Positions 4,607 to 28,620 of a stretch of DNA of 34,214 nucleotides are shown piece by piece. Positions within the stretch are counted from its first letter, which is position 1, and each line of letters begins with the position of its first letter. Source of the stretch: Subtercola sp. Z020. Lineage in GTDB: Bacteria; Actinomycetota; Actinomycetes; Actinomycetales; Microbacteriaceae. Position numbers and translations under genes: made by a program. The DNA lies in assembly GCF_002931235.1 (NCBI RefSeq), contig NZ_PSTT01000053.1, positions 1 through 34,214 on the forward strand, written 5' to 3'. The notes under the pieces were generated by a model that worked only from the letters and a program-made list of their open reading frames with translations, was not told the DNA's origin and did not search any database.

Positions 4607-4620
4607 GGGGTCTCCGGATG

Positions 4621-9978: not shown

Positions 9979-10923
9979 TCAGGCGGTCGTGGGGTTGGCG
10001 GCGGCGATCGCGTCGGCCTCTGCCCGCAGCGCGTCGGCGACGGTGCGCACGGCGAGGCGCTCGGCGCGGTCGGGGCGCATCAGGGCGTAGATGTGCCGCT
10101 CGGCGCGCATGCCCGACAGTGGCCTGAGAGCGATGCGCTGCGAGAGGGTGCTCGAGGTGAGGTACGCACCGGCGGCGGTGTAGCGCGGGAGGATCGCGAT
10201 TCCGAGACCCGACGCGACGAGGGATTCGGTCACCCGCGTGTCGGCGAAGCGCTGCACGATGTCGACGGGGGCGCCGGCTGCGGCCGAGATGTCGTAGAGA
10301 GTGCGCTCGAACGGGTAGCCCCAGGGCACCCCGATCCACTGTTCGCCGATGAGGTCGGCCGGGCTCACGCTGGCCTGGTCGGCGAGTGGATGCCCCGGGG
10401 GAAGCGCGACGTCGAGAGGCTCGGTCATGAGGTGCACGATGCTGAGGCCGCGGCCGTACCAGAGCGACGGCGGGCGGGTCGGAGCATGGGCGACGACGAT
10501 GTCGAAGTCGTTGGTGAGGTCGGGGAACCCTTCGGAGACCGGATCGCGGTCGCTCGCGTGCAGCGTGAGGCCGGTCTGGCGGGCGAGACGGTGCAGCACG
10601 CCGGGGAGCAGCATCTGGCCGCCGGTCGGGAAGGTGGCGAGCGAGACCTCGCCCGTGGGGTCGTGGCGGAACTCGTCCCAGAGGGCGTCGGCGCGTTCGA
10701 GGGCGATGGCGACGTCGGTGGCGCTGCGGGCGAGGGCGCGGCCGGCATCGGTCAGCACGATTCCGCGGCCGGACTTCTCGGTCAGCGGCAGGCCGGCCTC
10801 CTTCTCGAGCACGCGGAGCTGCTGCGAGACGGCGGACGGAGTTCGGTGGGTGGCGCGCGCCACTTCGGTGATGCTGCCGCGCTCGGCGAGTTCGCGGAGC
10901 AGTTCGAGCCGGCGTACGTCCAT
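9979..10923 (-). CDS. LysR-family transcriptional regulator
   Basis: The N-terminal winged HTH (residues 1-65) reads MDVRRLELLRELAERGSITE and then ...TPSAVSQQLRVLEKEAGLPL, typical of LysR. A periplasmic-binding-protein-like effector domain follows (about 90-300) with the usual DFDIVVAHAP and GLGIAILPRY elements. Length 314 aa. It sits downstream of and co-oriented with the pyrimidine operon but is separated by 189 bp holding a strong inverted repeat. A TAnnnT box 6 nt before its ATG suggests its own leaderless promoter. Target and ligand are unknown; the adjacent aminotransferase operon is a candidate target. Confidence 0.92.
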   Translation of the reverse strand: MDVRRLELLRELAERGSITEVARATHRTPSAVSQQLRVLEKEAGLPLTEKSGRGIVLTDAGRALARSATDVAIALERADALWDEFRHDPTGEVSLATFPTGGQMLLPGVLHRLARQTGLTLHASDRDPVSEGFPDLTNDFDIVVAHAPTRPPSLWYGRGLSIVHLMTEPLDVALPPGHPLADQASVSPADLIGEQWIGVPWGYPFERTLYDISAAAGAPVDIVQRFADTRVTESLVASGLGIAILPRYTAAGAYLTSSTLSQRIALRPLSGMRAERHIYALMRPDRAERLAVRTVADALRAEADAIAAANPTTA

Positions 10924-11112: not shown

Positions 11113-12450
11113 CTAGGCGTGCACGGCGGCCGACGCGAAGGCCTCGTCGAAGATGGTCAGCGCCTGGGCGACCTCCTCCTCGGTGACCACGCAGGGGGGC
11201 ACCACGTGCAGGCGGTTGTCGGCGAAGATCGGGAGAAGGCCGAGGGAGAGCAGCTTCGCCTTGAGGGCGCCGATCGTGGCCTGCGGGAGCGGCTCCCGGG
11301 TCTCGGGGTCGGCGACGAGGTCGAGCGCCCAGAAGACGCCCATGCCGCGCACCTCACCGATGGCTTCGTGCTTCTCGGCCAGTGCCCGGAGGCCCGGGCC
11401 GAGCACCTCACGGCCGATGCGCTCGGCGTGGGCGACGATGCCCTCCGCCTGCATGGCGTCGAGCGCTCCCACGATCGAGGCCATGGCGAGCGGATGCCCG
11501 GAGTACGTCAGCCCACCCGGGAACACCGTGTCGTCGAAGGCTTCGGCGATGTACGGCGGGATGATGACCCCGCCGACCGGAACGTAGCCCGAGTTGACGC
11601 CCTTCGCGAAGGTGATGAGGTCGGGTACGACGGTCTCGCCCTCGACATGGCCGAGCGCCTGGAACGCGAACCACCCTCCCGCTCGGCCGAAGCCGCACAT
11701 CACCTCATCGAAGATCAGCATGATGCCGTATGTGTCGCAGAGGGCCCGCACTCCGGCGAGGTAGCCGGGCGGGGGAACGAGGATGCCCGCCGTGCCCGGG
11801 ATCGTCTCGAGCACGATCGCGGCGATGCCCGAGGCGCCTTCGGAGATGATGACCCGCTCCAGGTGGTGCAGTGCTCGCGCGCTCTCCTCCTCGGGGCTCG
11901 TCGACCAGAATTCCGAGCGGTAGGCGTAGGGGCCGAAGAAGTGCGCGTGGCCCCGTGCGTACTCGTTCGGGATGCGGCGCCAGTCGCCGGTCGCGACCAC
12001 GGCGGCACCGGTGTTGCCGTGGTACGAGCGGTAGGTCGACAGGATCTTGTCGCGGCCGGTGTACAGGCGCGCCATGCGGAAGGCGTTCTCGTTGGCGTCT
12101 GCTCCCCCGTTGGTGAAGAACACCTTGCTGAAGCCGTTGCCGGCCCGCTCCAGGATGCGCTGGGCGGCCTTGCCGCGCGCGAGGTTGGCGGCGGCGGGTG
12201 CGATCGTGGTGAGCACCTCGGTCTGCTCCCGGATGGCGGCGGTGACCGCCGGGTGCTGGTGCCCGATGTTCACGTTGATGAGCTGGCTGGAGAAGTCGAG
12301 GTAGCGGTTACCGTCGAAGTCCCAGACGGTGCTGCCGAGCCCCCCGGCGATGACCATCGGTGTGAGGGCGGCCTGCGCCGACCAGGAGTGGAACACGTGG
12401 GCGCGGTCGAGTTCGTAGGCGAGGCGGCCGTCGTCGGGGTTGAGGTTCAC
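11113..12450 (-). CDS. Class III (omega) aminotransferase, probable beta-alanine/beta-aminoisobutyrate transaminase
   Basis: This is a PLP fold-type I class III aminotransferase. FFTNGGADANENAFRMAR binds the cofactor phosphate, SYHGNTGAA is the family aromatic-His motif, IFDEVMCGFGR carries the PLP Asp, and FAKGVNSGYVPVGG the Schiff-base Lys (about K283). The family includes beta-alanine-pyruvate and related omega-amino acid transaminases. In this operon it would convert beta-alanine or 3-aminoisobutyrate, the products of beta-ureidopropionase, to semialdehydes. The start at GTG 12450 is chosen for AAGAAGG about 9 nt upstream. It is separated from the lipoprotein gene by a nested hairpin that may lower its expression. 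Substrate is inferred from context. Confidence 0.88.
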   Translation of the reverse strand: MNLNPDDGRLAYELDRAHVFHSWSAQAALTPMVIAGGLGSTVWDFDGNRYLDFSSQLINVNIGHQHPAVTAAIREQTEVLTTIAPAAANLARGKAAQRILERAGNGFSKVFFTNGGADANENAFRMARLYTGRDKILSTYRSYHGNTGAAVVATGDWRRIPNEYARGHAHFFGPYAYRSEFWSTSPEEESARALHHLERVIISEGASGIAAIVLETIPGTAGILVPPPGYLAGVRALCDTYGIMLIFDEVMCGFGRAGGWFAFQALGHVEGETVVPDLITFAKGVNSGYVPVGGVIIPPYIAEAFDDTVFPGGLTYSGHPLAMASIVGALDAMQAEGIVAHAERIGREVLGPGLRALAEKHEAIGEVRGMGVFWALDLVADPETREPLPQATIGALKAKLLSLGLLPIFADNRLHVVPPCVVTEEEVAQALTIFDEAFASAAVHA

Positions 12451-12483
12451 AGGTGGTGCCTTCTTCTTCCTAGGGGTGCAGCC

Positions 12484-12525
12484 GGGCATCCATTCTCCGC
12501 CTGCGGAGACGGCGAGTGGATGCCC
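12484..12525 (-). terminator. Nested hairpin between lipoprotein and aminotransferase genes
   Basis: Outer arms GGGCATCCA and TGGATGCCC (12484-12492, 12517-12525) enclose an inner hairpin CTCCGC-CT-GCGGAG (12495-12508). It lies 15 nt after the lipoprotein stop in the minus-strand transcript. It may act as a partial terminator or RNA-stabilising stem that sets binding protein above aminotransferase. Confidence 0.5.
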
Positions 12526-12539: not shown

Positions 12540-13697
12540 TTACTTGCCGCCCTCGGTGAGGGTGACTGTGATGGGTGCGTAGGAGGTTCCTGTGACGTCG
12601 ACACCCTCGCCCTTCAGCGCATCGAGCGCCTTCTGCACGTAGGTGTTGGTGTAGGCGTCGGAGTCGGGCTCCTTGGTGATGACCGTCGTTCCCTCGAGGT
12701 TCTTCGCGGTCATGGCGACGTCGACCGTCTGCTTCCAGGCGCTGTCGTCGATCATGCCGATTCCGTCGGGCGACGGCCAGATGAGCTTGTTGATCTCGTT
12801 GGTCTGCCAGAGCTGGTGGCTCGCACCGAGCTGCGAACCCTTGGCGACCACGATGTCCGACGCCTTCTGGGGGTTGTCGCGAGCGTAGATCCAGCCCTTC
12901 AGGGCGGCCGTCAGGAACTTGACGGTCTGGTCCTGGTAGGCCTGGTCGTTGTTCAGCTTGTCGGTGTTCGCCCAGATCGCATCCTGGAGCATGGCCGTGC
13001 CCTCGTCGTTCCAGTCGATGACGTTGAGGTCGCTCGGCTGGTAGAGCTTGCCTGTGGCCGGGTTGATCGTCTCCAGGATCTGCGCGTACTCGTTGTACGT
13101 CTCCGCCTGCGCCGCGTCGATGGAGCCGTCGAGCAGCCCGGATTCGTCGAAGGCCTGCTGCACGAGCTGCACGTCGGTCGCGGGATCGAGGCCGGCCTTG
13201 GTGATTCCGGCGAACATCTCGAACTCGTTGCCGTAGCCCCAGTTGCCGACGACCTTGCCCTTCAGGTCGGCAGCGGTCTTGATGTTCTTGTCGGCCATCG
13301 AGACCTGCAGGGTGCCCGACTTCTGCAGGATCTGCGCGACATCGGTGATGCCGGCGCCCTGCTCTCGGGAGGCGAGGGCCTTAGGCACCCAGGCCACGGC
13401 GTAGTCCACCGCGCCGTCGGCGAGCTGGGTCTGGGGCACGATGTCGGTGCCGCCCTCGACGATGGTCACGTCGAGACCCTCGTCGGCGAAGTACCCCTGG
13501 TCGAGCGCGGCGTAGTAGCCGGCGAACTGCGCCTGCGTGAACCACTGCAGTTGCAGCTTGACCGGGGTGAGGGCCGAGCCGTCAGTGGATGTCGCCGCGG
13601 AGGTCGTGCTCGACGAACTCGAGCATCCACTCAAAACGAGGGCAGCCGACGCGGCGAGGGCCGCCACGCCGAGGGTGATGCGTTTGCTGTGCTTCAT
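12540..13697 (-). CDS. NMT1/THI5-like ABC transporter substrate-binding lipoprotein
   Basis: A lipoprotein signal peptide ends in the lipobox LVLSGC (Cys25), followed by a Ser/Thr linker. The mature domain opens with PVKLQLQWFTQAQFAGYYAALDQG, the mark of NMT1/THI5-like (SsuA/ThiY) binding proteins, and keeps GYFADEGLDV and VVGNWGYGNEFEM. Relatives bind pyrimidine precursors of thiamine, riboflavin or similar small ring compounds. With dihydropyrimidinase in the same operon, uracil, thymine or a dihydropyrimidine is the likely ligand (inferred). Of two adjacent ATGs, 13697 is chosen because GGAGGA then lies about 4-5 nt upstream. It follows the permease gene after a 157-bp gap full of 17-bp repeats. 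Confidence 0.9.
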   Translation of the reverse strand: MKHSKRITLGVAALAASAALVLSGCSSSSSTTSAATSTDGSALTPVKLQLQWFTQAQFAGYYAALDQGYFADEGLDVTIVEGGTDIVPQTQLADGAVDYAVAWVPKALASREQGAGITDVAQILQKSGTLQVSMADKNIKTAADLKGKVVGNWGYGNEFEMFAGITKAGLDPATDVQLVQQAFDESGLLDGSIDAAQAETYNEYAQILETINPATGKLYQPSDLNVIDWNDEGTAMLQDAIWANTDKLNNDQAYQDQTVKFLTAALKGWIYARDNPQKASDIVVAKGSQLGASHQLWQTNEINKLIWPSPDGIGMIDDSAWKQTVDVAMTAKNLEGTTVITKEPDSDAYTNTYVQKALDALKGEGVDVTGTSYAPITVTLTEGGK

Positions 13698-13768
13698 CAT
13701 TTCCTCCGTTGGTTCTGGTGCTGGACGGGTGGTGCGGTGAAGTGGTGCGGTCTGGTGCGTGGTGCGGT

Positions 13769-13854: not shown

Positions 13855-14709
13855 TCAGGCTCGGCGCCGGCTGGCGAGCCGCTCGAGCAGCAGGGTCACC
13901 CCGTAGAACACGAGGCCCAGGATGATCGCGCCGAACACGTAGGCCCAGGCGCGGGGGTAGGCGCTGTTCGCGGCGGCCGAGGTGATGCGCGAACCGAGGC
14001 CGTTCTGCAGGCCGCCGAAGTATTCCGCGACGATCGCCGAGATGACGCCGAGCGGCGCGGCGATGCGCAGCCCGGTGAAGATGAACGGCACGGCGCCCGG
14101 CAGCGTGACGGTGCGGGTCAACTGCCAGTTCGAGGCGGCATAAGCGCGCATGAGGTCGCGGTGAACGGGCCGCACCTGCCGCAGACCCCGCAGGGTGTTG
14201 ATGAACACCGGTGCGAACACCACGATCAGCACGACGACCCGGCGCGGGGTGTCGGAGGTCGACCCGAACATCGTGTTCAGGATGGGCGCCAGGGCGACGA
14301 TCGGCACGACGGCGAGTGCCGCGACGATCGGCACGATCATCCGGTCGAAGACGGTGACGCGCGAGGCCAGCAGGGCCAGCACGATCGCGAGCAGCGAGCC
14401 GACCACCAAGCCGATGAGGGCGTTCAGGCCGGTGGCGAGCAGCGACGACCACAACAGCGGCAGAACGACGACGATCTGCCCCGCGATGTCGGTCGGGCTC
14501 GGCAGCAGGTAGGGCTTGATGTCGAACACCACCACGACGAGCTGCCAGAGCAGCAGGAACGCGACCCCCAGCACGAGCGGGGGCAGCACCGATCGCGCGA
14601 GCGAGCGACCGCGGGCGCCCCCCTCCCCCGCGCGGGCACTGGGCTGCTGCTGTGCCTCCGCCTCGGCGGGAAGCGAGAAGAGGGCGGGCGCGGTCGGATC
14701 GAGGCTCAT
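13855..14709 (-). CDS. ABC transporter permease (SsuC/ThiX type)
   Basis: This is an inner-membrane permease of the BPD_transp_1 family with about six hydrophobic segments beginning near residue 40 (LPPLVLGVAFLLLWQLVVVV). The cytoplasmic EAA-like loop LRQVRPVHRDLMRAYAASNW contacts the ATPase, followed by LPGAVPFIFTGLRIAAPLGV. The N-terminal 35 residues are polar and low-complexity. Its ATG overlaps the stop of the ATPase gene (ATGA). It is the second, diverged permease of the system, so the transporter probably uses a heterodimeric channel. Confidence 0.9.
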   Translation of the reverse strand: MSLDPTAPALFSLPAEAEAQQQPSARAGEGGARGRSLARSVLPPLVLGVAFLLLWQLVVVVFDIKPYLLPSPTDIAGQIVVVLPLLWSSLLATGLNALIGLVVGSLLAIVLALLASRVTVFDRMIVPIVAALAVVPIVALAPILNTMFGSTSDTPRRVVVLIVVFAPVFINTLRGLRQVRPVHRDLMRAYAASNWQLTRTVTLPGAVPFIFTGLRIAAPLGVISAIVAEYFGGLQNGLGSRITSAAANSAYPRAWAYVFGAIILGLVFYGVTLLLERLASRRRA

Positions 14710-15530
14710 CGGAGGTCAGCTCCGAGCGGCGCCACCGGAGAGCCGTGCAGGGCTTCGCGCACCGCGGTGACGCCCGCGAAGAACGCGGCATTCTCGCGCA
14801 GGGCGTCGCTCCGCTCGGTGCCCGGACCGAGGTTCACCGACACGATGTCGACGATGCGGCCGGGTCGGGGCGACATCACGACCACGCGGTCAGAGAGGAA
14901 GACCGCCTCGGGGATGGAGTGTGTGACGAAGACGACGGCGGCTCCCGTCTCCGAGCAGATGCGCACAAGTTCCTGCTGCATGCGTTCGCGCGTCATCTCG
15001 TCGAGGGCGCCGAACGGCTCGTCCATCAGGAGGAGCTTCGGCCGCTCGGCGAGGGATCGCGCGATGGCGACGCGCTGCTGCATGCCGCCCGAGAGCTGGT
15101 CGGGGTAGCGGGTGCGGAAGTCGCTGAGCCCGACCAGCTCGATGAGCTCTTCGGCGCGCGCCGCGCGCTCGGCCTTGCCCACGCCGTGGAGCTCGAGCGG
15201 CAGCTCGATGTTCGCCTGCACAGAGCGCCAGGGCAGAAGCCCCGCGCTCTGGAAGGCGATGCCGTACTCCTGGTCGAGCCGGGCCTGTCGCGCCGTCTTG
15301 CCGAAGACGAGGATCTCGCCGCTGGTCGCGGAGTCGAGGTCGGCGATCAGCCGGAGCAGTGTGCTCTTGCCACACCCCGACGGGCCGATCAGGGAGACGA
15401 ACTCCCCCGGCGCGACGGTCAGGTCGATGCCGGTGAGGGCCTGCACCTCCGCCCCCCGGGCGACGGAGAAGATCTTGCCGGCCGAGCGCACGGAGATGGC
15501 GGGCAGGGCGTTCAGAGCGGTGTCGGTCAC
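14706..15530 (-). CDS. ABC transporter ATP-binding protein (SsuB/TauB type)
   Basis: All nucleotide-binding motifs are present: Walker A GPSGCGKST (residues 49-57), Q-loop Gln94 in IAFQSAGLLPW, signature LSGGMQQR (146-153), Walker B LLLMDEP (D170, E171) and the switch His204 in VFVTHS. The GLLPW wording is typical of nitrate/sulfonate/taurine-type ATPases that work with NMT1-like binding proteins. It powers the import system formed with the two flanking permeases. GTG at 15530 overlaps the stop of the preceding permease (GTGA); the frame is open upstream but the sequence there belongs to the permease gene. Confidence 0.95.
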   Translation of the reverse strand: MTDTALNALPAISVRSAGKIFSVARGAEVQALTGIDLTVAPGEFVSLIGPSGCGKSTLLRLIADLDSATSGEILVFGKTARQARLDQEYGIAFQSAGLLPWRSVQANIELPLELHGVGKAERAARAEELIELVGLSDFRTRYPDQLSGGMQQRVAIARSLAERPKLLLMDEPFGALDEMTRERMQQELVRICSETGAAVVFVTHSIPEAVFLSDRVVVMSPRPGRIVDIVSVNLGPGTERSDALRENAAFFAGVTAVREALHGSPVAPLGADLR

Positions 15531-16426
15531 GAGGCCGCCTCCTGTCGGTTGAAGCGTTTGAGCGAGAGCCCGATGAGCGCGACGATCGCCGCCGAGACGA
15601 GGCCGAGCACGACCGCTCCGGCGATCGGGGCGTAGGCCTTGGCGGGGTCGGAGGTTCCGGACTGGGCGAATTCGATGATCATGCGGCCGATGCCGCCCTT
15701 GTAGCCCGTCGAGACCTCGGCGACCACCGTTCCGACGATGGCGCTGGCCGCTCCGAGCCGGAGCGCCGGCAGAAGGTACGGCACGCTGGCCGGCAACCTC
15801 AGCTTCAGCAGGGTGCGGAACCAGCCCGCGTTGTACGTGCGCATCAGCTCGACGTGGATCGCATCGGGCGACTGCAGGCCGCGGAGCGCCCCCACGGCCA
15901 CGGGGAAGAACGCAAGGTACGACGCGATGACGGCCACCGACATCCACCTGTCCCAGGAGAACGCACCGATCTGGATCTTGCCGCCCCAAGCGACGATCAC
16001 CGGCGCGAGGGCGATTAGCGGAACCGTCTGGCTGAGGATGAGCCAGGGCAGCACGGCGCGTTCGGCGACGTGCAGCCGCTGCATGAGCAGCGCGATGAGA
16101 AAGCCGACCACGGAGCCGACGGCCCAGCCGACCGCGGCCACGCCGAGGCTGTTCAGGGCGGCGCCGATCACCGCGACCCACACGGGCGGCGAGCCGGCCG
16201 AGGTGTTCACCGGCTCGATGGCGCGTGTCAGCATGTCGACGAGGTGCGGCATGGAACGGTCGTCGGTCTTCGGCAGGATGCTCGTGCCGAAGAGCTCCAC
16301 CCCCGCCACCGGGCCGACAGCCTTGTACCCCTCCCACAGCACGGCGAGCACCACGATGCCGAGCACCCCCCAGAGCACCGCGCTGGCGCGGCTCTTCGTG
16401 CGGTCGGCCCCCCTTGTCATCGTCAT
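15527..16426 (-). CDS. ABC transporter permease (SsuC/ThiX type)
   Basis: This is the first of two permeases. It has about six membrane spans, an N-terminal span at ASAVLWGVLGIVVLAVLWEG, and the EAA-like loop GALRGLQSPDAIHVELMRTY followed by KLRLPASVPYLLPALRLGAA. Length 299 aa. It starts inside the stop of the LLM oxidoreductase gene (ATGA) and ends inside the start of the ATPase (GTGA), so the catabolic and transport genes are translationally coupled. Confidence 0.9.
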   Translation of the reverse strand: MTMTRGADRTKSRASAVLWGVLGIVVLAVLWEGYKAVGPVAGVELFGTSILPKTDDRSMPHLVDMLTRAIEPVNTSAGSPPVWVAVIGAALNSLGVAAVGWAVGSVVGFLIALLMQRLHVAERAVLPWLILSQTVPLIALAPVIVAWGGKIQIGAFSWDRWMSVAVIASYLAFFPVAVGALRGLQSPDAIHVELMRTYNAGWFRTLLKLRLPASVPYLLPALRLGAASAIVGTVVAEVSTGYKGGIGRMIIEFAQSGTSDPAKAYAPIAGAVVLGLVSAAIVALIGLSLKRFNRQEAAS

Positions 16427-17439
16427 GCCGTGGCCGTGATGTGCTCTCGCATCGCGGGGATGACGGCTTCGCCGTACACCCGCAGGGTCTCTTCTTTGTT
16501 GTCGTGCTGCAGATAGCCGGCGAACTGGTCGACGCCGAGCTCCTTCAGGGCCTTCAGCTTCTCGATGTGCTGCGAGGCGTCACCGAGCAGGCAGAACCGG
16601 TCGACGATCTCGTCGGGCACGAAGTTCGCGTGCTCGTTGCCCGCGAGCCCATGCTGGTTGTAGTCGTAGCCCTGGCGCGCCTCGATGTAGTCGGTGAGGG
16701 CCTTCGGCACGTTCGAGTCGGTGCCGTACTTCGACACGATGTCGGCGACGTGGTTGCCGACCATGCCACCGAACCAGCGGCACTGGTCGCGCATGTGCTC
16801 CCAGTCGTTCCCGATGTACATGGGAGCCGCGACACAGAACTTGATCGCCATCGGGTCGCGCCCGGCTCGCTCGGCCGCCTCACGAACGGTCTTGATCATC
16901 CATTCGGCGATGTCGACGTCGGCGAGCTGCAGGATGAAGCCGTCGCCGACCTCGCCCGTGAGCTTCAGGGCGAGCGGGCCGTAGGCGGCCACCCAGACCT
17001 CGAGCTCTGAACCGCGGCTCCAGGGGAACTGCAGCGTCGCACCGTTGTACTCGACCGACCGGCTGTTCGCGAGTTCGCGGATCACGTGGATCGACTCTCG
17101 GAGCGTCTTCAGCGTGGTCGGCGCGCCGTTCGTCGTGCGCACCGCCGAATCGCCCCGGCCGATGCCGCAGATGGTGCGGTTGCCGTACATCTCGTTCAGC
17201 GTGGCGAAGATCGAGGCCGTGACGGTCCAGTCGCGGGTCGCCGGGTTGGTGACCATGGGGCCGACCTTGATGCGGTGCGTCTCGTTCAGGATCTGGCTGT
17301 AGATGACATAGGGCTCCTGCCAGAGCAGGTGGGAGTCGAAGGTCCATGCGTAGTCGAAGCCGTGCTGCTCGGCCAGCTTCGCGAGCGCGAGGGTGCGCGA
17401 CGCCGGCGGGTGGGTCTGGAGGACTGCTCCGAATTCCAT
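16423..17439 (-). CDS. LLM-class F420-type oxidoreductase (CPS_4043-like); candidate pyrimidine reductase
   Basis: This is a luciferase-like TIM-barrel protein of 338 aa. It starts MEFGAVLQTHPPASRTL and contains ATRDWTVTASIFATLNEMYG and GNRTICGIGRGDSAVRT, wording of the F420-dependent CPS_4043-type branch related to methylene-tetrahydromethanopterin reductase. The start at ATG 17439 is chosen for AGGAAG about 9 nt upstream; an upstream in-frame ATG lacks family sequence. It lies between dihydropyrimidinase and the importer, with its stop overlapping the first permease. No NAD(P)H dihydropyrimidine dehydrogenase is present, so it may reduce uracil/thymine with F420H2. An FMN-dependent oxygenase role, as in RutA, is the main alternative. 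Family call is firm, substrate is inferred. Confidence 0.88.
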   Translation of the reverse strand: MEFGAVLQTHPPASRTLALAKLAEQHGFDYAWTFDSHLLWQEPYVIYSQILNETHRIKVGPMVTNPATRDWTVTASIFATLNEMYGNRTICGIGRGDSAVRTTNGAPTTLKTLRESIHVIRELANSRSVEYNGATLQFPWSRGSELEVWVAAYGPLALKLTGEVGDGFILQLADVDIAEWMIKTVREAAERAGRDPMAIKFCVAAPMYIGNDWEHMRDQCRWFGGMVGNHVADIVSKYGTDSNVPKALTDYIEARQGYDYNQHGLAGNEHANFVPDEIVDRFCLLGDASQHIEKLKALKELGVDQFAGYLQHDNKEETLRVYGEAVIPAMREHITATA

Positions 17440-17478
17440 GTGGTGCTGCTTCCTGCGGTGGTGGTCGGGTTCGAACAC

Positions 17479-17500
17479 GACGCCGGGCGGGCCCGACGTC
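17479..17500 (-). other. Hairpin between dihydropyrimidinase and LLM genes
   Basis: GACG-c-CGGGC-gg-GCCCG-a-CGTC can fold just after the dihydropyrimidinase stop in the minus-strand RNA. It is the only strong structure in that 70-nt gap and could protect or separate parts of the operon message. Confidence 0.35.
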
Positions 17501-17509
17501 GCTGGTGGA

Positions 17510-18949
17510 TCAGATCAGGTACTGGCTCAGGCCGCGCTTGAAATACTTGCCGTCGCCCTTGCTGCCGAGGTAGGCGTTGTCGTCGACGATCACCTTGCCC
17601 CGGGAGATGACCGTGTCGACGTGGCCGTCGATCTCGTAGCCCTCCCAGGCCGAGTAGTCCATGTTCATGTGGTGCGACCGGCCCTCGCCGGTGCCGATCG
17701 AGGTGTGGCCCTTGGGGTCGTAGATGACGACGTCGCCGTCGGCCCCGGGCTGTATGACGCCCTTCTTGCCGTACATGCCGAACATGCGGGCGGGCGTGGT
17801 GGAGGTGAGCTCGACCCAGCGCGGCAGGGTGATCTCACCCATCACGACACCCTGGTAGATGAGGTCCATCCGGTGCTCGACAGACCCGATGCCGTTCGGG
17901 ATCTTCGAGAAGTCGCCGACGCCCATGTCTTTCTGGCCCTTCATGCAGAACGGGCAGTGGTCGGTCGAGATGACCTGCAGGTCGTTTGTGCGGAGACCCT
18001 GCCACATGTGGTGCTGGTGGCCCTCTGCCCGCGACCGGAGCGGGGTCGAACACACCCACTTCGCCCCCTCGAAGTCGCCCCATTCGGCACTGGATGCCCC
18101 CAGCTGCTCCTCGAGCGAGAGATAGAGGTACTGCGGGCAGGTCTCGGCGAACACGTTCTGGCCGCGATCGCGGGCGATGGCGATCTGCTCGACGGCCTGC
18201 TTGGCGCTCACGTGCACGATGTAGAGCGGCGCCCCCGTGAGGTTCGCCAGCATGATCGCGCGGTGCGTCGCCTCTTCCTCGGCCTGCCACGGTCGCGTGG
18301 TGCCGTGGAAGTAGGGAGACGTGTCGCCACGGGCGATCGACTGCTGCACGAGCAGGTCGATGACGCTGCCGTTCTCGGCGTGCATCATCATCAGCGCACC
18401 GTTCTCGCTGGCCCGCTGCATCGCCTTCACGATCTGGCCGTCGTCGGAGAGGAACACACCTTTGTAGGCCATGAAGAGCTTGAACGAGCTGACGCCTTCG
18501 TTCAGCAGTTCATCCATCGCGGTCAACGACGAATCCTGCACGTCGGAGAGGATCTGGTGGAACCCGTAGTCGATCGCGCAGTTGCCGGCGGCCTTCTGCT
18601 GCCAGAGCTGGTACTCGTCGAGGATGTTCTCGCCGGCATACTGCACGACGAAGTCGACGATGCTCGTGGTTCCGCCCCAGGCCGCGGCCCGCGTTCCCGT
18701 CTCGAAGGTGTCGGAGGCGAACGTGCCGCCGAACGGCATCTCCATGTGCGTGTGGGCGTCGATGCCGCCCGGTATCACGTACTTGCCGCGGGCATCGATG
18801 ACGCGGTCGACGTTGGCCGCGATGTCGAAGCCCAGAAGCGCCGAGCCCGGTGCGAGAACCGCCGCGATCGTCTCGCCGTCGATCAGCACGTCGGCTTCGG
18901 CTGTGCCGGTCGCGTTGACGACCGTTCCATTCGTGATGAGTGTCTTCAT
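17510..18949 (-). CDS. hydA: Dihydropyrimidinase (D-hydantoinase family)
   Basis: This cyclic amidohydrolase opens 5,6-dihydrouracil/dihydrothymine (or hydantoins) to N-carbamoyl-beta-amino acids. The binuclear metal site is complete: DAHTHMEM (H66, H68), the carbamylated Lys in SSFKLFMAYKG (K157), MHAENG (H190), IVHVSAK (H246) and STDHCPF (D330). Length (479 aa) is normal. ATG at 18949 has AAGGAG 8 nt upstream, a strong site. It follows the beta-ureidopropionase gene by 42 bp and precedes the LLM gene by 70 bp. Pairing with beta-ureidopropionase supports a true pyrimidine role over a generic hydantoinase. Confidence 0.94.
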   Translation of the reverse strand: MKTLITNGTVVNATGTAEADVLIDGETIAAVLAPGSALLGFDIAANVDRVIDARGKYVIPGGIDAHTHMEMPFGGTFASDTFETGTRAAAWGGTTSIVDFVVQYAGENILDEYQLWQQKAAGNCAIDYGFHQILSDVQDSSLTAMDELLNEGVSSFKLFMAYKGVFLSDDGQIVKAMQRASENGALMMMHAENGSVIDLLVQQSIARGDTSPYFHGTTRPWQAEEEATHRAIMLANLTGAPLYIVHVSAKQAVEQIAIARDRGQNVFAETCPQYLYLSLEEQLGASSAEWGDFEGAKWVCSTPLRSRAEGHQHHMWQGLRTNDLQVISTDHCPFCMKGQKDMGVGDFSKIPNGIGSVEHRMDLIYQGVVMGEITLPRWVELTSTTPARMFGMYGKKGVIQPGADGDVVIYDPKGHTSIGTGEGRSHHMNMDYSAWEGYEIDGHVDTVISRGKVIVDDNAYLGSKGDGKYFKRGLSQYLI

Positions 18950-18991
18950 CTGCGCTGCTCCTTCAGAGGTGCCGGGAGAGGGTGGTCGGGT

Positions 18992-19840
18992 CTACGGCTT
19001 CGGGATGGAGGTGTATGACTCCGGGCGGCGGTCGCGGTAGAACTGCCAGTCGTCGCGCATCTCCCGCACCATGTCGAGGTCGAGGTCTCTGATGAGGAGC
19101 TCTTCTTCTGTGCCCGAGCCGCGCTCGCCGATGAAGTTGCCCCGCGGGTCGATCGCCTGGCTGGTGCCGTAGAAGTCGACAGCCAGGTCGCCGTACTCGT
19201 TGTCCTCCCGGCCGACACGGTTCGGCTGCAGCACGAAGTAGCCGTTGGCGACGGCCGCTGCGGGGCCCTCGACCTCCCACAACCGGTTCGAGAGACCGGG
19301 CTTCGTCGCATTGGGGTTGAAGACCATGTGGGCGCCGTTCAGGCCGAGCTCCCGCCACCCCTCGGGGAAGTGCCGGTCGTAGCAGATGTAGAGGCCGATC
19401 TTGCCGACCGAGGTGTCGAAGACGGGGTAGCCCATGTTGCCGGGGCGGAAGTAGAACTTCTCCCAGAAGCGGTCGACGTTCGGAATGTGGTGCTTGCGGT
19501 ACTTGCCGAGGATCGTGCCGTCTGCCTCGACGATGACGGCGGTGTTGTAGTACACGCCCGTGATGTCCTCTTCGTAGATCGGCAGGATCATGACGAGCTG
19601 CAGCTCGGCCGCCAGCGCCGCGAAACGCTGCACGATCGGCCCGTCGGCGGGCTCGGCGTAGCGGTAGTACTTCTTGTCTTCGGTGATGCCGAAGTACGGG
19701 CCGTAGAACAGCTCCTGGAAGCAGATGACCTGTGCGCCGTCGGCCGCGGCATCCCGCGCGAACTGCTCGTGCTTCTGGATCATCGACTCGAGGTCACCCG
19801 TCCAAGTCGTCTGGGTGATCGCTGCTCGTACAACCGTCAT
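18992..19840 (-). CDS. Beta-ureidopropionase (nitrilase superfamily carbon-nitrogen hydrolase)
   Basis: The nitrilase-type catalytic triad is visible: E43 in FQELFYGPYF, K116 in GKYRKHHIPN and C153 in GLYICYDRHFPEGW. The wording around all three is that of N-carbamoylputrescine/beta-ureidopropionase-like amidases. It would hydrolyse N-carbamoyl-beta-alanine or N-carbamoyl-3-aminoisobutyrate to the beta-amino acid, CO2 and ammonia, directly after dihydropyrimidinase. Length 282 aa. ATG at 19840 with AAGGAA about 9 nt upstream. It is the first gene of the operon and is divergent from the MocR-type regulator across a 103-bp AT-rich promoter region. Confidence 0.9.
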   Translation of the reverse strand: MTVVRAAITQTTWTGDLESMIQKHEQFARDAAADGAQVICFQELFYGPYFGITEDKKYYRYAEPADGPIVQRFAALAAELQLVMILPIYEEDITGVYYNTAVIVEADGTILGKYRKHHIPNVDRFWEKFYFRPGNMGYPVFDTSVGKIGLYICYDRHFPEGWRELGLNGAHMVFNPNATKPGLSNRLWEVEGPAAAVANGYFVLQPNRVGREDNEYGDLAVDFYGTSQAIDPRGNFIGERGSGTEEELLIRDLDLDMVREMRDDWQFYRDRRPESYTSIPKP

Positions 19841-19943
19841 TGGCGCTGTTCCTTCCGAGGCCCGTTTTGTTATTATTCGTTGTGGACATTTCTCTCGTGT
19901 TTCAGACTGTGACGCAGGCGTAAAAATAAGTCAAGAGGTGTGG
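19841..19943. promoter_or_regulatory. Divergent promoter region of the pyrimidine operon and MocR gene
   Basis: This 103-bp gap is the most AT-rich short stretch of the area. TATTAT (19871-19876) fits a plus-strand -10 box; on the minus strand AATAAT/TAATAA lies about 20 nt before the beta-ureidopropionase ribosome site. CTCGTGTTTCAG (19894-19905) joins the two ends of the repeats found before pucG (CTCGTG...TTTCAG). MocR proteins usually bind repeats in such shared regions. Confidence 0.55.
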
Positions 19944-21311
19944 ATGATCGACCGCATCATCGGGGCTGTGGAGGGCAAGACGCCCGAAGCCATCGCCGCC
20001 GCCGTCTCACGCCTGATCCGTTCGGGCGGCATTGCTTCCGGAGACCGGTTGCCGACCGTTCGCGAGCTGGCCCGCGCGCTGGGCGTCAGCCCCGCGACGG
20101 TCTCGAACGCCTGGCAGGCCCTCGCGGGCGTCGGGCTCATCACCTCACGCGGTCGCGCGGGCAGTTTCGTGCTGCAGGCCGGAACCACGTGGATGCCCAC
20201 CCACTTCGCCGAGCTGGCGGGCTCCCACGTCGAAGCCCGGCTCGACCTCTCCAGCGGCACACCCGATCCCCGCCTGCTCCCCTCGCTCGGCGCCGCACTC
20301 TCGCGCGTGCCCGCCCGCGCCGACACGTCGAGCTACCTCACCCAACGAGTGCTGCCCGAGCTCGAACGGCACCTGCGGGCATCCTGGCCCTACTCCCCCG
20401 AGGGCCTGACGATTCTCGACGGAGCTCTCGACGCCATCTCCCGGTCGCTCGAGATGGTCGTGCGCTACGGCGACAGGGTGATCGTCGAAGACCCGTCGTT
20501 CCCTCCGTTCTTCGACCTGATCGAGCAGTTCGGCGCCGAGCGCGTGCCGGTGGCGGTCGACGCACACGGGATGAGACCGGATGCCCTGGCCGCCGCCCTC
20601 GCCACGAACCCCGCGGCGATCATCCTGCAGCCCCGTGCGCAGAACCCCACGGGCGCGTCGTTGACCCGGGAGCGGGCCGAGCAGCTCGTGCGCGTGCTGA
20701 AGGCGCATTCGCACCTCACCGACCCGGTCATCATCGAAGACGACCATTCGGGCGAGATCAGCTCGGCGCCGACGCTCAGCCTCGGTGCGTGGCTGCCGAA
20801 CCGGGTGCTGCACATCAGGAGCTATGCGAAATCGCACGGCCCAGACCTGCGGATCGGCGCGCTCGGCGGGCCGGCGGCCCTCATCGATCGCATCGTCGCC
20901 CGCCGCATGCTCGGGCCGGGATGGACGTCGCGGATGCTGCAGGTCATTCTCTACGAACTGCTCACGGCACCCGAGTCGGTCGAGCAGGTCGCCCGGGCAC
21001 GCGACACCTACCGGGCTCGGCAGCTCGCGCTCGCGGCCGCCCTCGAGCGCCACGGACTGCCCTTCGTGGCGGCAGACGGCATCAACGCCTGGCTTCCGGT
21101 GCGCGACGAGCGGGCAGCCATCGTGTCGCTGGCCGCAAGCGGGATCCGGGTGGCGGCGGGGGCGCCGTTCCAGGCGCGGGCCGACCGTGGCGAGCGACCG
21201 GATGCCGACGCGGGGCAGTTCGTGCGCATCACGGCCGGCATCGTGGAGAACGACGTCGACGGCGTGGCCGGGCTGCTCGCCGCCGCGTCGCGGGGCGACA
21301 GCGCGGCGTGA
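19944..21311 (+). CDS. MocR-type GntR/aminotransferase-fold transcriptional regulator
   Basis: A GntR winged HTH fills residues 1-75 (RLIRSGGIASGDRLPTVREL, then VSPATVSNAWQAL). A fold-type I aminotransferase-like domain follows, with AQNPTGASL (about N234), VIIEDDHSG (D266/267) and the PLP-type Lys296 in IRSYAKSHGPDLRIG. MocR proteins bind PLP and sense amino acids or amines such as GABA, taurine or beta-alanine-like compounds. It faces the pyrimidine operon, whose product would be beta-alanine or 3-aminoisobutyrate, so such a sensor fits. The start at ATG 19944 is chosen for AGAGG 5 nt upstream; the frame extends left but through the promoter. A catalytic aminotransferase role is less likely given the HTH. 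Confidence 0.9.
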   Translation: MIDRIIGAVEGKTPEAIAAAVSRLIRSGGIASGDRLPTVRELARALGVSPATVSNAWQALAGVGLITSRGRAGSFVLQAGTTWMPTHFAELAGSHVEARLDLSSGTPDPRLLPSLGAALSRVPARADTSSYLTQRVLPELERHLRASWPYSPEGLTILDGALDAISRSLEMVVRYGDRVIVEDPSFPPFFDLIEQFGAERVPVAVDAHGMRPDALAAALATNPAAIILQPRAQNPTGASLTRERAEQLVRVLKAHSHLTDPVIIEDDHSGEISSAPTLSLGAWLPNRVLHIRSYAKSHGPDLRIGALGGPAALIDRIVARRMLGPGWTSRMLQVILYELLTAPESVEQVARARDTYRARQLALAAALERHGLPFVAADGINAWLPVRDERAAIVSLAASGIRVAAGAPFQARADRGERPDADAGQFVRITAGIVENDVDGVAGLLAAASRGDSAA

Positions 21312-22362: not shown

Positions 22363-23484
22363 GTGAAGATAACGGTGTTGGCCGGCGGCGTCGGTGGAGC
22401 GAAATTCCTGCGGGGGCTGCGACAGCACCTGCGTGAGACCCTGCCCGATGGCGCGGGCGGCACGACGGCCACGGTGACGGTGGTCGTGAACACGGGCGAC
22501 GACCTGTGGTTGACGGGGCTCCGCGTCTGCCCCGACCTCGACTCCATCATGTACACCCTCGGCGGTGCGAACGACGAGGTGCGCGGCTGGGGCCGGCTCG
22601 GCGAGAGCGAGCGAGTGAGCGCGGAACTGACGGCCTACGGGGTGGGCTGGCCCTGGTTCACGCTCGGCGATCTCGACCTCGGAACGCACATCACGCGCTC
22701 GCATCTGCTGCGTGAGGGGCTGACACTCAGCGAGGCGACGGCACAGGTGACGGCGCGCTGGAACCTCGGCGTGACCCTGCTGCCGATGAGCGACCAGCCG
22801 GTCGAGACGCACGTGGTGGTTGCAGACGAGGAGGGCACTGAGCCCGGATCTGCTCCCGGGGCTGCTCCTGGTACCCGCACGATGCACTTCGAAGAGTGGT
22901 GGGTGCGCTACCGGGCGTCGCTGCCCGCGCTGCGTTTCGAGCAGCACGGCATCGAGACAGCCGTAGCTGCACCCGGTGTCGTCGATGCGATTCTCGACGC
23001 CGACGTGGTTCTGGTCGCGCCGTCGAACCCCGTCGTCTCGATCGGCACCATTCTGCCGGTGCCGGGAATGCGCGAGGCCCTTCTGACGACGTCGGCGCCG
23101 GTCGTCGGCGTCTCGCCGATCATCTCCGGGTCGCCCGTTCGCGGTATGGCGAAGGCGTGCCTCGACGCGATCGGGGTGGCGGTGGCGGCGGACGCGGTGG
23201 CGCTCCACTACGGGGCGCGCGGCGCGCGTTCGACGTCGGCGGGTGCTGACGCTGCCGGCACCGGTTCGAGCTCTGGCGGCGCCGGCTCCGGCTCCGGCTC
23301 CGGCATTCTCGACGCCTGGCTCATCGACGAATCGGATGCCGCGCTCGCCCCCGGAATCGAGGCCGCCGGACTCGCGGTCAGCGTGGTTCCGCTCTGGATG
23401 ACGACCGTCGACGCCACGGCAGCCCTGGCCGCCGCGGCCCTAGCGGCGGCAGACGGAGTGCGCCTCGCACACGCAACCGCCTGA
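22363..23484 (+). CDS. cofD: 2-phospho-L-lactate transferase (CofD/FbiA)
   Basis: This enzyme joins the phospholactyl (or phosphoenolpyruvyl) guanosine group to Fo, giving F420-0 or dehydro-F420-0. The N-terminal Rossmann-like motif ITVLAGGVGGAKFLRGL, the VVNTGDDLWLTGLRVCPDLD block and GWFTLGDLDLGTHI-type wording (here WPWFTLGDLDLGTH) are diagnostic, as is VLVAPSNPVVSIGTIL. A Gly/Ser-rich repeat (about residues 288-318) is inserted before the last helix. The start is GTG with GAGGA 6 nt upstream. It makes the substrate for CofE, encoded 3 kb away on the other strand. Confidence 0.95.
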   Translation: MKITVLAGGVGGAKFLRGLRQHLRETLPDGAGGTTATVTVVVNTGDDLWLTGLRVCPDLDSIMYTLGGANDEVRGWGRLGESERVSAELTAYGVGWPWFTLGDLDLGTHITRSHLLREGLTLSEATAQVTARWNLGVTLLPMSDQPVETHVVVADEEGTEPGSAPGAAPGTRTMHFEEWWVRYRASLPALRFEQHGIETAVAAPGVVDAILDADVVLVAPSNPVVSIGTILPVPGMREALLTTSAPVVGVSPIISGSPVRGMAKACLDAIGVAVAADAVALHYGARGARSTSAGADAAGTGSSSGGAGSGSGSGILDAWLIDESDAALAPGIEAAGLAVSVVPLWMTTVDATAALAAAALAAADGVRLAHATA

Positions 23485-24633: not shown

Positions 24634-25803
24634 ATGGAAACCGGTTCGATCGTCTACCGCAGTTCGCTCCACGGTCAGGAGGCAGAGCTGCATCTCGTCG
24701 ACGCGCCCACGCAGACGTACCAGCTGAGGGTCGACGGCATCCTCCAGTCCGAGGTGTGCCTCGCCGACCCGACCGTGATCGGGTTCGCGTATGCCCGCCA
24801 CGTCGCTCGGTTCGTCGATGCGATGGCCGTGGAGGCCGCGGAGGCCGGTGCGGCTGGCGTCGGTGACGGCCCCGCGGGCGGTGGTGCGACGGCCGGTGGC
24901 TCGGCGGGAAACGGCCCTGGGGCTGGGGCTGGGGCTGGGATGACCGTCGCGCACCTGGGCGGCGGGGCGCTGACCCTCGCGCGCTACGTCGCCGACCGAT
25001 GGCCCGGAGCCGTGCAGTACGTGGTCGAGTCGGAGTCCGAGCGAACGACCGACCTGCTCGGCATCCTGCCCCTGCCCAACGGTGCCGACGTGCGCTTCCT
25101 GTTCGGCGACGCGCGCGCGGTCGTCGACGGCGGGATGGCCGGTGCCGGGCATCGTGCACCTTCAGGCGAGAGTGCAGACGCGGGCGCGGGTGCCGAGGTG
25201 AGCGGGAGCGCGCGTGGCACGCAGCTGGCGCAGCCGCCGTGGCGGGAGGCGACAGTGACCATCGTCGACCTGTGGGCGGGGGCGACGATCGCGGCGCGGG
25301 TCGCGAGCCTCGAGTTCTACGCGGGCATCGCGGGCGGGATGGCACGCGGCGGCGGGCTTGCAGTGAACCTGCTCGACGGGCCGGGCTTCGCGTGGTCCCG
25401 GCGGCAGGCCGCGACGCTGCGGCTGCTGTTCGAGCACGTCGTCGTGGTGATGGACGAACGGATGCTGCACGACGACCTGATCGGCAACGTGCTGGTCTTC
25501 GCCTCGGACCGGGCGCTCGACGAGATCGGGGAGCCCGGCTGGCCGCACGACCCCACGAGCGCGACCCACGTTCTGCACGGCGCGCGCCTGACCGACTGGA
25601 TCGGCGACGCCTCGGCCACGAGCGACGCCGATGCGACCGACTCCCCACCGCCCGATGCTGGCTACTTCGCTCCGTTCGCGAAGCATGCGGGAGGTCTCGT
25701 CGGCAACACGGGCGAGCGTGGCCGCAGCCACGAGCGCACCGACGATCGTCGCGGCATCCACCAAGGCGAAGGCCTGGACGATCTGCGTCGAGAGGCGGTC
25801 TAG
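24634..25803 (+). CDS. Spermidine-synthase-like (class I methyltransferase fold) protein
   Basis: The Rossmann core resembles polyamine aminopropyltransferases: VAHLGGGALTLARYVADRWP for nucleotide binding, YVVESESERT, VRFLFGDARAVV, and VTIVDLWAGATI followed by a hydrophobic strand. A Gly/Ala repeat (about residues 75-102) interrupts the fold just before the first motif, and a second low-complexity stretch lies near 170-190. Actinobacteria have many such spermidine-synthase-like proteins of unknown role, so polyamine activity is not claimed. The last 50 residues (after about 25660) are charged and unlike the family, which suggests an extended or shifted C-terminus. ATG start next to a promoter box. 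Confidence 0.75.
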   Translation: METGSIVYRSSLHGQEAELHLVDAPTQTYQLRVDGILQSEVCLADPTVIGFAYARHVARFVDAMAVEAAEAGAAGVGDGPAGGGATAGGSAGNGPGAGAGAGMTVAHLGGGALTLARYVADRWPGAVQYVVESESERTTDLLGILPLPNGADVRFLFGDARAVVDGGMAGAGHRAPSGESADAGAGAEVSGSARGTQLAQPPWREATVTIVDLWAGATIAARVASLEFYAGIAGGMARGGGLAVNLLDGPGFAWSRRQAATLRLLFEHVVVVMDERMLHDDLIGNVLVFASDRALDEIGEPGWPHDPTSATHVLHGARLTDWIGDASATSDADATDSPPPDAGYFAPFAKHAGGLVGNTGERGRSHERTDDRRGIHQGEGLDDLRREAV

Positions 25804-25918: not shown

Positions 25919-26551
25919 TCAGCGGGTGCGACCCCGCTGGAGCTCGGCACGGGTGTGCGCCCCGAAGGAGTCGGCGTCCACAGCGAGGTCGGCGGGGGTG
26001 TCGACATCCCGGCGCAGGGGCGAGTCGGACGGGACGGGGAGGGCGATCATCCCGCTCTCGGCGTGCGCGAGCGCCGAACCGACACCGAACCGCGGCGTGA
26101 GGTCGACGCCCGGCAGCGCCGCGATGGTGGTGGTGCCGGTCCCCTCGGCGTCGGGTACGAACGAGCGCGGGTGCTCCGCGGCCAGAGCCAGCGCGGCTTC
26201 GATCGCGCGGGGCGTCACCGCCGGGAGGTCGGCCGTGATCGCGGCGACGGCGGCTGCCGGGCGGCGGCGGCGAGCCTCTGCGATGCCCGATGTCAGGGCC
26301 GCGTTGAGTCCGCCGCCTGGGTCGGCGAGCGTGCTGGCGCCCAGTCGGGAGAGGGCGTCGGCCGATTCGGGGTCACCCGTCACGACGAGAACCTCGACCA
26401 CGCCGGCCGCCGCCCGCAGGGCTTCGACGGTGTCGAGCGCGAAGGCCAGGGCGAGACGCCGGCGCTCGGCGACGGTCGCCGGCAGTTCGGCGAGTCGCGT
26501 CTTCGAGAGGTCGGAACCCTTGACGGGCACGACGACGATCCACTCGGTCAC
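25919..26551 (-). CDS. cofC: 2-phospholactate/phosphoenolpyruvate guanylyltransferase (CofC/FbiD)
   Basis: This enzyme activates 2-phospholactate (archaea) or phosphoenolpyruvate (mycobacteria) with GTP, supplying the donor for CofD. The start [17 protein letters not shown] is the family nucleotide-binding motif. [12 protein letters not shown] and [10 protein letters not shown] carry the GTP and metal-site residues, and the C-terminus has [12 protein letters not shown]. Length (210 aa) is normal. GTG start overlapping the cofE stop (GTGA), so CofE and CofC are coupled. The chain order is Fgd-like LLM, cofE, cofC. Confidence 0.94.
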
Positions 26552-27543
26552 GGGCGCTCGGCTGCCCGCCCGGCGGCGTGCCCGGCCGCATACCCGGCGT
26601 CGTACCCCCGTGCGTATCCGTCGGCAGGGCCCGCAGCCGCACGCTCCGCCTCAGCCGCACGCTCGGCCTCAGCCGCACCCTCGGCCTCAGCCGCACGCTC
26701 GGCCTTAGCCGCACGCTCGGCCTCAGCCGCACGCTCGGCCTTAGCCGCACGCTCGGCCTCAGCCGCACGCTCGGCCTCGGCGGCCGCGCGGCCCGCGGCG
26801 AAACCCTCGGCATGCGCCTCGTCCGACCCCAGCCGGAACATGTCGGTCGGCCCGGTGCGGGTCAGCGCCCGCGCGGGAGTGTCGAGGTTCTCGCCGACGA
26901 ACGCGGCCAGTCCGCGCACCAGGGCCACCGGCATCCCGCTCGCCTTGCCCTTCACCAGGTCGGCTGCCGAAGCGATCTCGTCGGCGACGGCGATCTGCGT
27001 CACCTGCAGCAGCTGGCCGAACGTGTCGGTTCCGCCCCGCAGGTCGTCGACGACCTGCACCCCGGCCGAGCCGATCGCCGCATCGACCTGGCCCTCGCGC
27101 CAGGCGCGACCGAGGGTGTCGGAGATGAGGATGCCCACTCGCGCGCCGAGGCGCTCACGCAGTTGCGACGCCAGCCGCCGAGCCGAGGCGTCGGGGTCGA
27201 CGGGCAGCAGCAGAACGGTGCCTGCGGGGGTGTTGCTCGCGTCCACCCCCGCGGCGGCCTGCACGATGCCGAGGTGGTTCTCGACGATGCGGGTCACGCC
27301 GCCGGGATGCGCGCGGGTCGCCACCACGCGAACGGTTTCTGCCGTGATGGCGTCTTCACGATCATCCGCCGACACCGAACGCCCTTCGGACTTCGAGACG
27401 ATCTTGCTGGTCACGACCAGGATGTCGCCGTCGTGCGCGATGATGCCCTGCGCTTCGAGCGCGTCGACGATCAGGTCGTCGAGCGCATCTCCGGCGGCCA
27501 CTTCGCCCATGCCCTCGAGGGCGTAGACGTGGATCTCCGGCAC
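26548..27543 (-). CDS. cofE: Coenzyme F420-0:L-glutamate ligase (CofE) with repeat tail
   Basis: The CofE fold occupies residues 1-240: [59 protein letters not shown] and [24 protein letters not shown] are all diagnostic. The enzyme adds glutamates to F420-0. Mycobacterial FbiB continues with a nitroreductase-type domain that reduces dehydro-F420-0; here that domain is absent. Instead, about 85 residues of [12 protein letters not shown] repeats (about 255-305) and a Tyr/His-x-x-Gly tail ([17 protein letters not shown]) follow. GTG at 27543 lies 1 nt after the LLM stop; the frame is open upstream inside the LLM gene without family sequence. Confidence 0.94.
26633..26780 (-). repeat. 18-bp coding minisatellite in cofE
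   Basis: Eight copies of an 18-bp unit (plus strand GCCTCAGCCGCACGCTCG with small changes) encode AERAAE or AERAAK. E and K versions alternate in the middle, giving a 36-bp superunit. The predicted product is a charged alpha-helix. Confidence 0.9.
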
Positions 27544-27544
27544 G

Positions 27545-28546: not shown

Positions 28547-28589
28547 GCACCCATCCTGCCACCTGCGGGCGGGCGGGGCGGCGACCGTT

Positions 28590-28619: not shown

Positions 28620-28620
28620 G

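Follow-up and report, generated by a model that had tools for sequence, protein, structure and literature searches.

The Rut pathway opens the pyrimidine ring oxidatively, with FMN and O2 and without a dihydropyrimidinase; RutA is an enzyme of the LLM class, and its products bypass dihydropyrimidinase. In the reductive (Pyd) pathway the ring is reduced by PreTA or PydA, and both NAD(P)H and ferredoxin variants of PydA are described in passages of PMC7332683; the term F420 does not occur in that paper. Two further reports concern predicted F420 enzymes acting on related rings. According to passages of PMC10714638, gene disruption showed that SSGG-03002/NpsU, a putative F420/FMN oxidoreductase, participates in reduction of the uracil ring of mureidomycin/napsamycin, and an in vitro assay of the protein gave no product. 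Passages of PMC12507026 predict a putative F420-dependent LLM yanthine reductase in uric acid clusters of Chloroflexota. Here we analyze an operon from Subtercola sp. Z020, located in a stretch of 34,214 nucleotides (positions 1 to 34,214 of contig NZ_PSTT01000053.1; the whole stretch is called the window), in which an LLM-class oxidoreductase of the TIGR03842 family is encoded together with enzymes of pyrimidine breakdown.

We put at about 0.84 the probability that this operon of a soil-type actinobacterium serves reductive uracil/thymine breakdown and that TIGR03842 acts in it as the F420H2-dependent uracil/thymine reductase. On the best reading of the sequence data, the TIGR03842 route would be a third version of the reductive pathway, distinguished by its electron donor. 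That the LLM may be such a reductase had been proposed from the letters of the window only (the sequence-only reading), and this remains the best-supported view in the light of F420-pyd plasmids in Leisingera, preA in related operons and Mer as the nearest fold. It is made likely by comparison: conserved linkage, co-occurrence, a semialdehyde dehydrogenase gene in many of the clusters, the module swap in Leisingera, and the Mer-like profile and fold.

Gene content and conserved linkage of the operon

All genes of the operon lie on the minus strand. A carbon-nitrogen (CN) hydrolase, the proposed beta-ureidopropionase (18992-19840; PF00795, 9.1e-64), is followed after 42 nt by a dihydropyrimidinase (DHPase; 17510-18949; TIGR02033, 539.9 bits with a cut-off of 393.25) and then by the LLM gene (16423-17478), the proposed F420H2:uracil/thymine 5,6-reductase. 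The gap between the latter two is 31 nt when measured to the listed GTG of the LLM gene, whose real start is probably an internal ATG at 17439 (residue M14). Overlaps of 4 nt join the LLM gene to a first ABC permease (15527-16426; PF00528), this permease to an ABC ATPase (14706-15530; PF00005) with a GTG start and AGGAGG just upstream, and the ATPase to a second permease (13855-14709; PF00528). An NMT1-type substrate-binding protein (12540-13700; PF09084) and a class III aminotransferase (11113-12489; PF00202; PRK06062, 706.4 bits), the proposed beta-alanine/beta-aminoisobutyrate transaminase, complete the set. The sequence-only reading had described these genes as one operon, and the profile matches together with the short gaps and overlaps bear this out.

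Among solved structures DHPase is best matched by the dihydropyrimidinase 3sfw (1.2e-138), and the CN hydrolase by 2vhh (4.9e-51), which we take to be Drosophila beta-alanine synthase, followed by N-carbamoylputrescine amidohydrolase 5h8i (1e-49) and human beta-ureidopropionase 8pt4/6ftq (about 7e-47). The ABC ATPase shares 50% identity with its counterpart in a Qingshengfaniella preTA operon, and the binding protein is 34-37% identical to those of four hydA-linked loci.

These genes suggest the following scheme. The ABC transporter would bring in pyrimidine bases. TIGR03842 would reduce the C5=C6 bond of uracil or thymine by hydride transfer from F420H2 to C6, giving dihydrouracil or dihydrothymine, with C5 protonated by an invariant LLM residue near the ring. 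DHPase would open the dihydropyrimidine ring, the CN hydrolase would release NH3, CO2 and beta-alanine or beta-aminoisobutyrate, and the class III aminotransferase would yield malonate or methylmalonate semialdehyde. The last step would fall to a CoA-acylating semialdehyde dehydrogenase, encoded elsewhere in the source genome and within the cluster in many relatives. F420H2 would be regenerated by an Fgd-like or an NADPH-dependent F420 reductase.

Three sets of related loci were examined. The first comprises 80 named loci, kept as the best among 567 confirmed relatives and therefore close ones; the other two sets come from draws of 197 genomes of the class (40 of 44 LLM-positive genomes fetched; G000, G018, G057 and G112 left out) and 396 genomes of the phylum (40 of 79 fetched), and at least one locus is shared between sets, L039 and L101 lying on contigs of the same length (246,660). 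A DHPase gene was found no more than 6 kb from the LLM gene in all 80 named loci, accompanied by a CN hydrolase in 79. The corresponding figures for the class draw are 39/40 and 37/40, the three exceptions being L107 (a contig of 3.5 kb), L111 (close to the end of its contig) and L130 (where both genes are lacking). Of the 40 loci of the phylum draw, 28 have a DHPase (of either type) near the LLM gene, 33 a hydrolase belonging to one or other beta-ureidopropionase class and 22 an aminotransferase. The partners change around a constant LLM: the hydrolase is of the CN or the Zn type, and the transporter is an ABC importer (15/40 class loci) or an NCS1-type symporter (10/40, family assigned for one). 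The clustering of pathway genes around the LLM gene is far beyond chance.

A gene resembling that for (methyl)malonate-semialdehyde dehydrogenase (MMSDH) is part of the cluster in 58 of the 160 loci: 27/80 named and 16/40 class loci at a threshold of at least 300 bits, and 15/40 phylum loci at one of at least 200 bits. These neighbours emerged with a second gene caller, the first having given spurious antisense open reading frames. The query, from L135, where it sits between DHPase and the LLM gene, scores 684.8 bits against TIGR01722 (cut-off 448.5); the MMSDH of the source genome lies outside the operon, on contig C134 (686.9 bits).

Co-occurrence in whole genomes follows the same pattern. 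TIGR03842 is present in 44 and DHPase, above its cut-off, in 47 of the 197 class genomes, and DHPase was found in 42/44 genomes with the LLM and 5/153 without it (Fisher 9e-35, kinship not corrected).

The hydrolases themselves could fit another substrate. The TIGR02033 model does not separate dihydropyrimidinases from D-hydantoinases, both of which rank high, and N-carbamoylputrescine amidohydrolase is almost as good a match for the CN hydrolase. The operon might instead degrade hydantoins, imported dihydropyrimidines or other cyclic ureides, with the LLM making an F420-dependent change on that substrate; related modules for other rings are suggested by a Variovorax F420 operon (see below), in which a different LLM is found together with a CN hydrolase and an amidohydrolase. 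We regard such a function of the window operon as improbable, as MMSDH and an AptA-family transaminase point to beta-alanine/beta-aminoisobutyrate, NCS1-family symporters accompany the LLM in the class loci mentioned above, and the Leisingera cluster has a RutR-like regulator and hydrolases common to preTA operons.

For the preferred uracil/thymine pathway the first enzyme then has to be accounted for. The source genome is a 3.53 Mb draft of 166 contigs, 98.73% complete, and genome-wide profile searches gave scores for the best few candidates per genome only. PF01180 (DHO_dh) had a single match in it, on contig C98, which from its sequence and neighbours we read as PyrD, and the PreA model had none at 1e-60; PreT was not searched separately. 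The sequence-only reading had noted that PreA/PreT is absent from the window; with these two models PreA was not found elsewhere in the genome either, and on these searches we rejected a PreA hidden elsewhere. The PreA model, which detected E. coli and Deinobacterium among 14 controls, had no match at 1e-60 in the 197 class genomes; in the 396 phylum genomes there were three matches (two above the cut-off), none of them in the 79 genomes with the LLM.

The sequence-only reading had also suggested looking for rutA. Two RutA-like LLMs were found in the source genome, at 383.6 bits (C1) and 274.7 bits (C110), both below the RutA cut-off of 498.3. The one on C110 (L091:1544-5817) shares a cluster with genes for an NtaA-like LLM, an NMT1 ABC importer and an isochorismatase. 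At 1e-20 no NCBIfam model, RutB included, matched this isochorismatase; RutB was not searched genome-wide. RutA was rejected as the main route on these grounds, and C110 may carry a second, oxidative pathway. The RutA model matches 16 places in the genome, none of them the operon LLM, and RutA is likewise missing from the 25 NCBIfam families matched by that LLM.

Family, fold and residues of the LLM enzyme

The LLM of the window is 96% identical to its counterpart in Subtercola boreus (Microbacteriaceae) and scores 590.4 bits against TIGR03842 (F420_CPS_4043), well above the curated cut-off of 295.45. In a hmmsearch against solved structures Mer came first (2.8e-48), followed by F420-dependent hydroxymycolic acid dehydrogenase, Adf and Fgd; luciferases matched at 8.4e-14 and weaker, and FMN enzymes ranked below F420 enzymes. 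An AlphaFold model with a mean pLDDT of 80.9 was built from an alignment of 45 sequences, one from the window and the others from 44 of the named loci; a second alignment comprised 16 hand-picked sequences. Foldseek placed Mer with F420 (8qpl) at rank 1 (E 2.2e-22, TMq 0.75, 29% identity), with F420 enzymes down to rank 16 and a luciferase at 17. By profile and predicted fold, the nearest solved relatives of the LLM are F420-dependent enzymes, and Mer is the closest.

Residues D110, Q184, N242, H243, Y271, D272, Y273 and H276 are invariant in 163 LLM sequences, as are G73 and V76-P79, and C296 varies once; this count omits L131 (from G094; two pieces, perhaps frameshifted), which is shorter than 280 residues. 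In Mer, a non-prolyl cis-peptide loop, Asp96 and a carboxamide position, Gln178, are described in passages of PMC11094777; whereas Gln178 is written there, we counted Asn at chain position 178. In our reading of the HMMER alignment, G73 with V76-P79, D110 and Q184 would correspond to the loop, Asp96 and the carboxamide position, respectively. The LLM is not Mer itself, since it scores 141.4 bits with the Mer equivalog (cut-off 348.7) and has V19 at the position of Glu6.

These data bear on the proposal that the LLM is an FMN-dependent RutA-like oxygenase, responsible for oxidative opening or hydroxylation of pyrimidines, with the F420 genes nearby by chance. RutA is itself an LLM enzyme, and no FO synthase was found in the source genome; nevertheless Mer is the nearest relative by both profile and fold, FMN enzymes ranking lower, the LLM is regularly accompanied by DHPase, an enzyme that the products of RutA bypass, and in Leisingera and Paracoccus the LLM gene follows npdG in a complete F420 operon. 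We consider a RutA-like function improbable for this enzyme.

F420 genes of the window and of proteobacterial plasmids

Proteobacterial plasmids support F420H2 as the probable reductant. On plasmids of Leisingera caerulea and L. aquaemixtae, cofG, cofH, cofD, cofC, cofE, npdG, TIGR03842 and a RutR-like regulator form one array; divergent from it are pntA, pntB, an AptA-family transaminase (749.9 bits, cut-off 500), a Zn hydrolase, hydA (615.4 bits) and an NCS1 symporter. The npdG product, NADPH:F420 reductase, scores 191.4 bits (cut-off 149.8); from the gene order, NpdG and PntAB would supply F420H2. The annotation was read for two of ten Leisingera plasmids, and hydA, cofG and the LLM were found in all ten by search. 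In Qingshengfaniella and Roseinatronobacter, Zn hydrolase and hydA are instead accompanied by an NAD(P)-dependent oxidoreductase in the position of PreT, preA, a RutR-like regulator and an ABC importer, and similar operons of lower identity (PreT-position oxidoreductase and preA) occur in Burkholderia and Azospirillum. Between Leisingera and Qingshengfaniella, Zn hydrolase and hydA are each 74% identical. RutR is the best model for the Leisingera regulator (194.1 bits, below the cut-off of 368), and the regulators of the compared preTA operons are also below it. A Paracoccus alcaliphilus plasmid carries cofGHDCE-npdG-LLM followed by an NMT1 importer, so that in both genera the LLM gene comes after npdG in a complete F420 operon.

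Three other plasmids have related genes. In Caballeronia sp. SBC2 (L139) a 128-residue LLM fragment, 75% identical to that of Leisingera, lies beside Zn hydrolase, alanine dehydrogenase and pntB; we read this locus as a decayed relative of the cluster. In Variovorax sp. PBL-E5 (L140) cofGHDCE-npdG is found with a CN hydrolase, an amidohydrolase and an LLM scoring 202.7 against TIGR03842, below the cut-off of 295.45, and is perhaps an F420 module reducing another ring. Rhodococcus sp. USK10 (L096), whose plasmid record is unannotated, encodes an LLM with 35% identity to that of Variovorax, and cofH-like and CofC-like matches lie near it.

In the window, CofD (22363-23484, plus strand; TIGR01819, 312.6 bits), CofC (25919-26551, minus; TIGR03552, 151 bits) and CofE (26548-27678, minus; TIGR01916, 220.1 bits) lie within about 10 kb of the operon. 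Their assignment by the sequence-only reading was upheld, all three being above NCBIfam cut-offs; its Fgd-like F420 reductase (27545-28891, minus), a possible one, passed the TIGR03557 subfamily model (281 vs 210.4) and failed the Fgd equivalog (218.3 vs 420). CofE is present in 42/44 class genomes with the LLM and 120/153 without it, CofG in 39/44 and 91/153. The association of the LLM with F420 genes in the class is thus real but modest and, because these genes are common there, the proteobacterial plasmids are more telling.

That Fgd-like family gene, and the fact that many F420 enzymes of the LLM class (Adf, Fgd) are dehydrogenases, might suggest that the LLM runs oxidatively, F420 being reduced by a pathway intermediate and F420H2 fed to the cell. 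We think this very improbable: no source of dihydropyrimidine would remain, and pntAB with npdG in Leisingera fit a supply of reducing power. Ring reduction is the likelier direction.

Several observations weigh against an F420H2-dependent pyrimidine reductase. The first, reached by genome search and beyond what the window alone could show, is that the source genome has no recognisable FO synthase. CofG was not found at 1e-40 in it (G000) or in three genomes of the same family, G094, G117 and G195, all with CofE, and CofH was not found in the source genome, G094 or G117, a 27.6-bit match being present only in G195. F420 in the source genome would thus need salvaged FO or another enzyme. Salvage is the simplest reading, and a divergent FO synthase is possible; CofE without CofG occurs in 38 of 162 CofE-positive class genomes at the thresholds used. 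The review PMC8498797 contains none of the terms 'salvage', 'uptake of FO', 'FO synthase' and 'excreted'. Secondly, linkage has exceptions. DHPase is not nearby in 12 of 40 phylum loci: L144, L145, L159, L161 and L171 retain other pathway genes, L147 has only NCS1 and L165-L167 only MMSDH, and L142 (6.0 kb), L148 (3.9 kb) and L153 (11.9 kb) have no gene above threshold, with a weaker NCS1 match in L153. In the class draw, five genomes with DHPase have neither the LLM nor PreA, the genome of L130 (G029) has a TIGR03842 LLM and no DHPase match, and the LLM-positive G074 (84% complete) misses the DHPase threshold. Thirdly, the catalytic Glu6 of Mer is not kept in the LLM. Finally, the proteobacterial evidence has its limits. 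The ten Leisingera plasmids are near-identical, so independent cases are few; preTA was not seen in the stretch read of these plasmids, the chromosomes not being checked; and a search of the Paracoccus plasmid with Leisingera hydA found nothing at 1e-120. Eight proteobacterial hydA neighbourhoods were read. Four have preA near hydA, and in those of Thalassospira, Sulfitobacter, Sinorhizobium and Aminobacter both preA and the LLM are missing within 7 kb; a hydA gene lacking preA in its vicinity is therefore not in itself evidence for F420.

A wider proposal has, in our judgement, a little better than an even chance. It holds that TIGR03842 is the founding F420H2-dependent pyrimidine reductase, that its fold family is unrelated to that of PreA/PydA, which is of the DHOD type, and that in Actinomycetota uracil and thymine are mainly reduced by it; that some Alphaproteobacteria acquired the whole F420 pathway for it, which would explain why they make F420; and that the family to which the window belongs uses scavenged FO.

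Further genes of the window were noted. Between CofC and CofD, positions 24634-25803 encode a product of 389 residues, methyltransferase-like by eye; it was considered as an FO transporter and rejected, since Pfam gave no match and a simple count of hydropathy indicated no membrane segment. A MocR-type regulator (19725-21311, plus strand; family match) is divergent from the operon; as its family match begins only at about residue 82, translation probably starts at about 19960, and matches above 150 bits occur in 54/80 named, 11/40 class and 3/40 phylum loci. A LysR-type regulator (9979-10923, minus; PF00126/PF03466) lies downstream and is possibly linked. Consecutive genes at 1950-5754, adjoining an RpiR-type regulator, encode an allantoate-amidohydrolase-like enzyme, a BhcA-like aminotransferase and an acetamidase/formamidase, possibly a second ureide/amide pathway.

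Relation to known systems

If correct, the proposal would give a function to a widespread family without an assigned role (44/197 class and 79/396 phylum genomes sampled), bring the electron donors of a textbook pathway to three, and supply Actinobacteria bearing dihydropyrimidinase with their missing first enzyme. It would also offer a direct way to ask why some Proteobacteria make F420, an unanswered question in passages of the 2021 review PMC8498797. The literature matches listed, with subscription papers and preprints outside their scope, hold no tie between F420 and uracil/thymine catabolism, and F420 was not found in passages of PMC12305651. An F420 variant of pyrimidine reduction is not described in the passages on known precedents.

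With Rut the system shares the LLM fold and, as proposed, pyrimidine use; Rut differs in its oxidative ring opening without dihydropyrimidinase, and the RutA model has no match to the LLM of the window. Mer shares with the LLM the nearest solved fold and, by alignment, the loop motif and the positions of D110 and Q184; the LLM differs in Val for Glu6, its own invariants N242, H243, Y271-Y273 and H276, and a catabolic gene context. The Chloroflexota yanthine reductase (PMC12507026) is likewise an F420/LLM gene product predicted to replace a flavin reductase and to reduce a ring before an amidohydrolase, but in a purine pathway, in another phylum and as a prediction only. SSGG-03002/NpsU (PMC10714638) is a predicted F420/FMN enzyme for the same C5=C6 reduction of uracil, in vivo there, and serves antibiotic tailoring. 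The Pyd pathway shares with the operon, as proposed, ring reduction, dihydropyrimidinase, a beta-amino acid transaminase, semialdehyde dehydrogenase, related transporters and, in the Leisingera case, RutR-like regulators, and the CN hydrolase is a candidate for its beta-ureidopropionase. The pathway differs in the first step, where PreA was not found and the LLM with F420H2 is proposed instead of an enzyme using NAD(P)H or ferredoxin.

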